Under the pieces are notes generated by a model. The model was not told where the DNA came from and did not search any database. It saw nothing but the letters and a program-made list of their open reading frames with translations. Made by a program: the position numbers and the translations under genes. A DNA stretch of 64,000 nucleotides from Clostridiaceae bacterium (GTDB taxonomy: Bacteria > Bacillota > Clostridia > Acetivibrionales > DUMC01): contig DUMC01000020.1 of assembly GCA_012840075.1 (NCBI GenBank), positions 1 through 64,000 of the forward strand, in the 5' to 3' direction. This document shows positions 39,065-41,716 of this stretch, piece after piece (positions within the stretch are counted from its first letter, which is position 1; every line of letters begins with the position of its first letter).

Positions 39065-40303
39065 TCAGTCAATTTTTACGGTCCAAATAGAATTAAGTCC
39101 TAACTCCTTTGCTGCTACATATCTTTTGTAACCATCAACCAAAAGATTTGAATCTCCTCTTATGACAACAGGTTTATCAAATTTCCCATGCTTTTTGTAA
39201 TATTCTATTGTTTCTGCCAGCTTTTCCGGTCTTGGTCTTGTTCTGGCAAATGCAGCAGGTACTTTAATATCGGCTAAGGGGGTTTCACCTTCAATTCCTG
39301 TCGGTATTTTGGACTTACCTTTCTTAGCCTTAACTCTTTTGTTACTCCGGCTGTCACTGCTTGGCAATTTAACTTTTTTGATTTTAAATAGTCTGGCTTC
39401 TACAAACTCTTCACGGGACATGTCTGTTATAACTGCAGGAATTTTTTCAATATCGAGAATTTTTGCAGCAAAGTATCTGGCAGCGCCGGTGACAAGACTA
39501 TACTTGCCTCCCTCAATAGGTCTGACGGCAACCGGGATTTTGATGCTACCGTTTGATAAAATTTCTTTTAAATTAATACCAAATGTAAAATTCTGTACAT
39601 TCAGGTGAATATCTTCTGTAAGTACTATATCCTTTACGTTTATTTCGGTGACTTCTTCGGGCTTGTACCATGGAAGTCTTACAGTTATATATTCATCCTT
39701 TATCTTAGCTCCGGTTGTAAGGTTAAATGAAACTGGTACTGATTTAATATTTAAATCTTTAGCTAACAAGTAAATTTCATAACCGCTTACCAATGTCATA
39801 GTGTCTCTTTTCACAACTATAGGCTTATTAAAAGTCCCGTGTTTTTTAAAGTATTTAAAAGCTTTTACTTTAGCAGTCTTAGGTTCATTGATCTTTTCAG
39901 GTATTATTATTGATGTAATGGGAACCAAAGCTTCAGTACCGTCAGGAAGCTCTCCGGGGAATTTGAAAGAACCTGGAGAATTTTCATCTTCCACAAGCCC
40001 GTTTACGGCTTTAATGTCAATACATTGCACCGTCAAAAACGGTAATCCTTTTGAGGTTACATTTACAGTAGGTATACCGTTGATCATGTAGTATGTAGTT
40101 TTATTAACTTCCTTAGAAACCTTCTTCCATAGATTTTTTCCAATAATAACTTTACAGTATAATGAAGAAGCGGAAGAAACATGTTTGTTTGATGATGGTT
40201 GGTTTGTCGATATTCTAAAAAGTAATACAACGTCACCGGATTCAGTTGCTTTTGGTGTTTGCTCCGGAATACCTTTTACCGTGATCATTGAATTTGCCAT
40301 CAT
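39065..40303 (-). CDS. Protein with SSB-like OB-fold head and three ParB-like modules
   Basis: This roughly 412-residue protein has an unusual build. Residues to about 105 look like a single-strand-binding OB fold (ITVKGIPEQTPKATESGDVV, then LYCKVIIGKNLWKKVSKEV and a PFLTVQCIDIKAV closing strand). Then come three ParB N-terminal-like modules, each ending in the G-x-x-R/Y-x-x-A pattern: VSGYEIYLLAKDLNIKSVPV, VTGAARYFAAKILDIEKIPA and VDGYKRYVAAKELGLNSIW. A basic linker (SNKRVKAKKGKSK) separates modules two and three. No HTH such as chromosomal ParB carries is seen. The combination suggests nucleic-acid binding; the ParB fold in other proteins binds CTP or acts as a nuclease or kinase. The function is unknown. 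AGGAG precedes the clustered ATGs; 40303 gives the best spacing. Monocistronic. Confidence 0.75.
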   Translation of the reverse strand: MMANSMITVKGIPEQTPKATESGDVVLLFRISTNQPSSNKHVSSASSLYCKVIIGKNLWKKVSKEVNKTTYYMINGIPTVNVTSKGLPFLTVQCIDIKAVNGLVEDENSPGSFKFPGELPDGTEALVPITSIIIPEKINEPKTAKVKAFKYFKKHGTFNKPIVVKRDTMTLVSGYEIYLLAKDLNIKSVPVSFNLTTGAKIKDEYITVRLPWYKPEEVTEINVKDIVLTEDIHLNVQNFTFGINLKEILSNGSIKIPVAVRPIEGGKYSLVTGAARYFAAKILDIEKIPAVITDMSREEFVEARLFKIKKVKLPSSDSRSNKRVKAKKGKSKIPTGIEGETPLADIKVPAAFARTRPRPEKLAETIEYYKKHGKFDKPVVIRGDSNLLVDGYKRYVAAKELGLNSIWTVKID

Positions 40304-40588
40304 ATTCATCTGCTCCTAAAAATTTATTTTATTGTTTATTTTTATTATTAACCAAGGTTACCTTGATTATAAAACGTATTTTTTCTCACATATTATATAT
40401 TACACAATTTTATTTAACTTTACAAATATAAAAATTTTTGTTTGGATATATTTATGAAGATCCACCAGAATAGCCTTTACATTTATTTACAAAATTCAAT
40501 GAAAATATAGTAAACACTTTTTTCATAATAAAAAATAATAAGAATTATGAATAAAGAATTACAATTCTATAAGACAGGTGTAGCATTA

Positions 40589-41716
40589 ATGGGCTTAGAA
40601 TTGATTAACTTGGAAAGCGTGCTGTTAAAACATTATGAGCTTTATCCTGAAATGCAAATTCAGGATATGGTTAAGCTGATATATCAAAATGAATTCGGGT
40701 GAGGACACCTAATCAAGGATAAAGAAGACAGCTTAAAGAAGCTGAAGGAAGAGTACTGTTCTCTAGGGGAGTATCATCTATTTAATCAATTATTTGTTGA
40801 TATAGGCAATAATTTATGCAGATTAGATCTTAAAGTGCTTAAAAGATTGATGGATGGAAACATCTGTTGCATTGACCTGGCAACGATAAATACCTTTTTT
40901 GTAAACACATCCAATTCATTTTCCGGTAGCATTCAAAGGTTTGAAGAAAAACTTGAAATATTAAAGCAGTGCTGTAAGAGGAAAATGCTTCCTTATCCTG
41001 AAACTGAGGTTGAAGATTATCTCAAGGAATATAAAGAAAGGGGATATCCTCCTGTAAGCCACAGCGAAGTGTACCGCTTAACCTATTCACCTTCTTACAG
41101 GATTGTTGATGCCAGGTATCAGGATTTTTTTGAAATTTTCTGCAGGATTGATGCTTTGATGAAATCGAAAGATAGAGTAATTGTGGCCATAGATGGAAAC
41201 TGTGCTTCGGGAAAAAGTACATTGGCTGCTTTTGTCGCTGATGTATATAATGATTGCAATATTTTTCATATGGATGACTTCTTTTTAACACCTGAGCTAA
41301 GAACGGAAGAGAGAATGAAGGAAGTCGGAGGCAACGTGGATTATGTGCGTTTTAAAGAAGAAGTGATAGAAGGGTTAAAGAGCGGCAAAGAGTTTTGCTA
41401 TTGCCGGTACGACTGCCAACGGGAAACTTTTCATGAACCGATAAAAGTGGTTCCCAAAAAACTTAATATAATAGAAGGCAGTTACAGCATGCATCCTACT
41501 CTGAGAGAAAACTACGACCTGAAAATATTCCTCCATCTGGAACCGGAAGAACAAAGCAGAAGAATTTTAGAAAGGAACGGACCCAAAATGCACAGAATTT
41601 TTATTAATTTATGGATACCATTGGAAAACAGGTATTTTTCAGAAATGAAGATTAAGGAACAGTGTGATTTGGTATATAATATGTATCCATTGTCTACACT
41701 CCATACGCATAGCTAG
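40589..41716 (+). pseudogene. Uridine-kinase-like (P-loop) protein gene with an in-frame TGA
   Basis: From an ATG at 40589, with ACAGGTG eight bases ahead, one frame runs to 41716 and is broken only by TGA at 40700-40702 (codon 38, between NEFG and GHLIKDK). The codons on both sides read as one protein, so the ORF-track version starting at GTG 40835 is incomplete. The C-terminal half, from about codon 190, is a P-loop kinase of the uridine kinase/phosphoribulokinase group: VVAIDGNCASGKSTLAAF for the P-loop, FHMDDFFLTPEL for the substrate loop, and a FLHLEPEEQSRRIL lid region. The N-terminal 180 residues are a helical extension. Nonsense mutation is the simplest reading; selenocysteine is discussed under findings. 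Confidence 0.7.

Follow-up and report, generated by a model that had tools for sequence, protein, structure and literature searches.

The closest described systems are the orphan ParB-CTPase-fold fusions (Kaljevic et al. 2025, PMC12704722), in which the ParB/sulfiredoxin (ParB/Srx) fold occurs outside parAB and is joined to another domain. The survey of these fusions, of December 2025, used Pfam partners; the long "single-domain" proteins probably hide domains that are not in Pfam (PMC12704722). In ParB-fold fusions, the arginine of the GxxR motif is needed for NTP binding, and Box III is missing from many orphan ParB proteins (PMC12704722). Among the 28 ParB-fold proteins tested, 17 did not bind NTP, and PadC is listed among the members of the fold that need not act as switches (PMC12704722). 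Several proteins with the ParB/Srx fold, namely Osa, a ParB-methylase, and Srx, nick DNA non-specifically (reviewed in PMC5512222).

The 414-aa protein described here shares with the orphan fusions the ParB/Srx fold outside parAB, a fused domain, GxxR in some of its modules, and the lack of Box III. It differs from them in having three modules per chain and a head that is not in Pfam. The main text of PMC12704722 mentions no OB/SSB head and no tandem modules, and a literature search for an OB/SSB-ParB fusion returned none. The sequence-only reading of this DNA knew no name for the architecture, and indeed it is not named in any family model or paper found. The protein combines known parts in a new way and belongs to the orphan ParB-fold fusions; it does not constitute a new kind of system. 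It represents one of the hidden-domain cases, with a predicted OB head and tandem modules, one of which lacks the arginine of the P motif.

The gene and its domain architecture

The window, that is, the whole analysed stretch of 64,000 nucleotides, contains the complete gene at positions 39065..40309 of the minus strand. It encodes 414 aa from the first ATG, and the orthologue in the sister genome G002 is 65% identical. ATG codons 1, 3, and 4 (positions 40309, 40303, and 40300) are candidate starts. The Shine-Dalgarno sequence AGGAG (40313..40317, minus strand) is located 3 nt before the first ATG and 9 nt before the ATG of the third codon, the latter being better spaced, whereas the relatives start at the fourth-codon ATG (M-A-x-x-x-I). 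The open reading frame reported by the sequence-only reading is real; however, the end given for it, 40303, is the third codon, and the first ATG is at 40309. The gene is under purifying selection. In comparison with the G002 orthologue, dN/dS is about 0.13 for the whole gene, 0.067 for module 3, 0.13 for module 1, and 0.31 for the head; these values are rough, since dS of this pair is saturated or near saturation. The strongest purifying selection within the protein is thus found in module 3.

The evidence supports an OB-type head followed by three ParB/Srx modules, and no HTH was found in the 414-aa protein. All parts are encoded on the minus strand. The head (residues 4-112, positions 39974..40300) has a predicted OB fold with the SSB topology β1-β2-β3-α-β4-β5. 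Module 1 (residues 119-202, 39704..39955) and module 2 (residues 210-312, 39374..39682) are followed by a basic, variable linker (residues 313-337, 39299..39373), which is gapped in G002 and is the least constrained part of the protein. Module 3 (residues 338-414, 39068..39298) stops just past the core. A Pfam search of the protein revealed ParB_N alone, with an E-value of 2.4e-13, in two stretches, the best of which (250-307) lies in module 2.

The internal repeats were evaluated by Smith-Waterman alignment with 2000 shuffles. The Z-score was 22.7 for modules 1 and 3, 5.9 for modules 2 and 3, and 3.9 for modules 1 and 2, while the head matched none of the three modules. Judging by these alignments, modules 1 and 3 are clear copies of one subtype (A), and module 2 is a more distant representative of another (B). 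The two subtypes are related to each other (hhalign E 4.5e-12) and to a canonical clostridial ParB (3e-5 for subtype A and 3e-9 for subtype B). Membership of the ParB/Srx superfamily requires the α-β-β-α-β core and the conserved glycine of the P motif, with a ParB_N profile match or the fold; these features are present, module 3 being well modelled, module 2 recognised through Pfam, and module 1 through repeat homology. Searches of the phylum with subtype A returned mainly ordinary ParB and ParB-methylase proteins, and those with subtype B mostly ParB/Noc-sized proteins (270-330 aa); such hits support the fold, not the architecture.

The AlphaFold2 model of the window protein was built on a three-row alignment and has low confidence (mean pLDDT 55). 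The pLDDT values are 74-92 in module 3, about 55-85 in the core of module 2, and mostly 25-60 in the head and module 1. The strand order in the model is β-β-β-α-β-β in the head and α-β-β-α-β in every module. The two-module relative from Mahella was modelled better (68.5, with the head mostly at 73-83), and the topology of its head is the same. A Foldseek search against the PDB returned ParB, Noc, KorB, SbnI, Srx, and PadC for the modules; for the head, SSB and SsbB were found, as well as PriB (window-protein model) and Rim1 (Mahella model), the E-values of the SSB, PriB, and Rim1 matches being 2e-4 to 1e-3. The fold of module 1, whose pLDDT is low, is assigned because of its homology to module 3. 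An OB head and three ParB-like folds without an HTH, as proposed from the sequence, were thus borne out by Pfam, hhalign, the repeat tests, Foldseek, and two structure models, of low and moderate confidence, which both contain the OB strand order and the ParB/Srx cores.

As for the term "SSB-like" applied earlier to the N terminus, it is appropriate for the predicted fold but not for the sequence. The head has no match among PDB chains, no Pfam SSB match, and an hhalign probability of 0.1 with the SSB family; therefore, the head is an OB domain by predicted fold. In comparison with bacterial SSB and PriB, the protein has the predicted OB topology and the Foldseek matches, whereas sequence similarity and the acidic C-terminal tail are lacking (the chain ends with ...NSIWTVKID). 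An SSB paralogue was ruled out on sequence by the same hhalign value. Separately, a 235-aa protein with two tandem SSB-type OB domains was noted (L099 / L102, G000:C85:24786-25382), and similar double-SSB proteins are present in G110, G012, and G197.

ParB motifs and the arginine of GxxR

The sequence-only reading had all three repeats closing with a G-x-x-R/Y-x-x-A pattern. Modules 2 (G275-AAR278) and 3 (G393-YKR396) do have the arginine, but module 1 does not (G176-YEI179), and the pattern common to all three is G-x-x-x-Y-x-x-A-K. In the sister genome, module 1 reads GYAN instead of GYEI, while GAAR and GYKR are the same. The C-terminal A module of the Mahella protein keeps the arginine (GFRR), and its B module has lost it (GLKN). 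The A module of Priestia carries GYRR in Priestia megaterium and SYSR in P. filamentosa. According to the alignment, Box III (ENxQR) is absent from all modules, and Box I of ParB is not recognisable. Thus, of the Boxes I, II (GERR), and III of a canonical ParB CTPase, only GxxR can be found, in modules 2 and 3, and the same two modules, without module 1, show the retained GxxR of orphan ParB-fold fusions.

With the proteins of PMC12704722 as an analogy, modules in which GxxR is present are better interpreted as nucleotide-binding units, module 1 being a degenerate copy. The multivalent nucleic-acid-binding factor suggested earlier stays a proposal, and it is for the head that we infer strand binding. 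Alternatively, the protein could be a structural scaffold, with the OB head on the strand and the ParB/Srx modules serving as protein–protein interfaces only, with no nucleotide involved. The state of Boxes I and III, the arginine losses in module 1 and Mahella module B, and the Foldseek match to PadC would all be consistent with it; however, modules 2 and 3 retain the arginine in both species, and no other part of the protein is as constrained as module 3. We find a pure scaffold unlikely.

Several known identities were rejected. Module 2 is homologous to the N-terminal core of ParB and Noc (Spo0J family), but the protein has no HTH, dimerisation domain, or Box III. For the HTH and the C-terminal dimerisation domain of a ParB/Noc clamp, there is neither a Pfam match nor room in the sequence, and the protein scores far below the cut-off of the TIGR00180 and Noc models. 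Moreover, the host encodes ParB and Noc in genes of their own (assigned from sequence), and it also has SSB genes. A canonical ParB, Noc, or partition protein was rejected on the absence of the HTH and Box III and the presence of both ParB and Noc in the host, and nothing suggests a ParABS role for the 414-aa protein. The serine kinase SerK/SbnI was rejected with 38 and 21 bits against the curated cut-offs of 380 and 350, and an anti-phage defence protein because no PADLOC model matches the window protein.

Relatives and genomic context

The full-length three-module form was found in the window genome and in one of the two other genomes of its family, the sister genome mentioned above, the two representing related clostridial species; elsewhere in the order, no full-length protein was detected in the 58 genomes searched. 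A two-module form is encoded in all three Mahella genomes searched (L033, L034, L038), each time on the chromosome and directly before gltX, and no comparable form was found among 391 sampled genomes of the class. The G592 class search, which lacked a positive control, likewise gave no match. This 322-aa protein has a head homologous to that of the window protein (hhalign E 7.7e-7), followed by subtype B and then subtype A. Unlike the window protein, it lacks module 1 and the arginine of the B module, and it precedes gltX.

In the window, the gene is located between a nitroreductase gene and a P-loop kinase-like gene, and ilvB, ilvN, ilvC, leuA-type genes, an SDR gene, and purL are nearby (the names were assigned from Pfam domains). 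The genes around the locus differ among G000, G002, and Mahella, so no pathway can be read from the genome context. An rpsF-ssb-rpsR operon is located near the G002 copy; this was considered a coincidence, since a gene on the opposite strand separates the two and the window shows no such link. Positions 40835-41716 (plus strand) of the window encode a 293-aa, uridine-kinase-like protein with a GxxxxGKS P-loop and no Pfam match at 1e-5.

One-module OB-ParB proteins with subtype A were matched in 172 plasmid records, 171 of them from Priestia and one from Mesobacillus; the latter, when checked, was a lone module of about 100 aa without a head. In 16 of the 16 P. megaterium/aryabhattai plasmids present in both hit lists, from which the distances were read by hand, the OB-ParB gene is directly behind rep on the same strand, with a gap of about 110-314 bp. 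In P. filamentosa, it is not behind rep. In the Priestia rep_cluster_385 plasmids (L021, L082, L085-L087), the pair of rep and OB-ParB genes is conserved, and the second gene is annotated as "plasmid stabilization protein" or hypothetical. The Priestia protein (phrog_36163; e.g., WP_078082472) is similar to the window protein in having an N-terminal domain of SSB size and, after it, a subtype-A module, the module regions being about 35% identical; it differs in having one module, a long charged linker, a plasmid location behind rep, and a head whose homology is not significant. The phrog_36163 profile matches the whole window protein with an E-value of 1.9e-21 and gives no match with the head alone. 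The Priestia head aligns collinearly with the window and Mahella heads at an hhalign E of 0.007 in a single comparison (shuffled controls 0.11-0.56). Judging by these scores, the relationship of the modules is secure, whereas that of the heads is plausible, not proven, and the link to rep may therefore not transfer to the window protein. Scans of viral contigs with five queries found no relative.

The Priestia proteins raise the question of a plasmid maintenance factor that was domesticated, i.e., derived from a plasmid-replicon OB-ParB gene and kept on the chromosome, either as an accessory to replication or as a remnant. The position of the OB and subtype-A proteins behind rep and the phrog_36163 match to the whole protein would agree with this origin. 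However, the behaviour of the head in the same comparisons implies that the signal is mostly that of the module, and in all three Mahella genomes the two-module form occupies a fixed chromosomal place before gltX. Such an origin appears quite improbable to us.

Other partners of the modules and the proposed role

Subtype B is located behind RNase H in G012, G110, G197, and G092, although the RNase H domain of G092 is assigned by sequence resemblance and is not called by Pfam. In Psychrobacillus phage Perkons, the partner of subtype A is a zinc ribbon; in G104, it is a DUF5839-like domain (a weak match). As the module recurs on RNase H, a helicase, and OB proteins of plasmids, it may be a reusable add-on for enzymes that work on single strands or RNA:DNA hybrids. 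The absence of a link to a plasmid or phage, stated earlier from the sequence, is correct for the window locus with its metabolic neighbours, but not for the module family, which includes the Priestia rep operon, phage Perkons, and a Tn7-type locus.

These partners also bear on whether the modules might be NTP-regulated nicking nucleases, which the OB head would aim at single strands in order to process replication or repair intermediates or attack invading ssDNA. The nicking activity of Osa, the ParB-methylase, and Srx (PMC5512222) and the fusions to RNase H and SF1 helicase speak in its favour. On the other hand, the alignment of the three modules shows no evident cluster of acidic, metal-binding residues, no PADLOC model matches, and the gene stands alone among metabolic genes, which makes a nicking enzyme rather unlikely.

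We tentatively favour, as plausible though uncertain, an accessory single-strand-binding protein with a nucleotide-binding C-terminal ParB/Srx module, a degenerate module 1, and a role in replication, repair, or transposition. The OB head would bind single-stranded nucleic acid, most likely ssDNA; module 3, and possibly module 2 too, would bind nucleotide through GxxR, and nucleotide binding would alter the strand grip, self-assembly, or partner contacts of the protein. Module 1 may serve as structure or interface. The protein would act at replication, repair, or transposition intermediates and not in ParABS segregation; both the nucleotide binding and the pathway are what we infer. This reading is preferred because of the OB topology in two models with the SSB, PriB, and Rim1 matches, and the Pfam, hhalign, and Foldseek ties of the modules to ParB/Srx. 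It is also preferred because both three-module proteins keep GxxR in module 3, as do the Mahella and Priestia megaterium proteins in their C-terminal module, because the partners of the module (RNase H, SF1 helicase, zinc ribbon) act on strands or hybrids, because a short OB-ParB relative is directly behind rep, and because ParB, Noc, and SSB are encoded separately in the host and the gene is under purifying selection. The 17 of 28 tested ParB-fold proteins that do not bind NTP (PMC12704722), the unrecognisable Boxes I and III, and the low mean pLDDT of the window model count against it.

A nucleotide-switched single-strand-binding protein can also be considered, in which NTP in the tandem ParB/Srx modules, one a pseudo-module and two active, would open or close the OB hold on ssDNA. 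This seems somewhat unlikely; if true, ssDNA coverage would here be regulated in a new manner, by an NTP-switched OB protein and without a P-loop ATPase.

Some of the fusion loci have features of their own. In G197 (L041:543-9758, G197:C57), a 287-aa RNase H and subtype-B fusion follows the Tn7-type genes tnsA, tnsB, tniB/tnsC, tnsD, and tnsD on the same strand. In G092 (L042:12383-16122, G092:C27), a protein of 867 aa, which combines a rep-like N terminus with a RecD-like SF1 helicase domain, is encoded directly upstream of the fusion of RNase H-like and ParB-like domains; apparently, this locus is a mobile element. G259 (L043:13060-16668, G259:C40) encodes a 1202-aa SF1 helicase (AAA_11/AAA_12) with a subtype-A module at its end; it resembles the PADLOC model MkoA (8.8e-119) and may be a defence protein. 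Finally, a conserved ORF of about 180 aa (M(R/K)(E/D)AFDNTLQE...) is found ahead of the RNase H-ParB fusion in two genomes (L040:8224-9740 and L003:158-1815).
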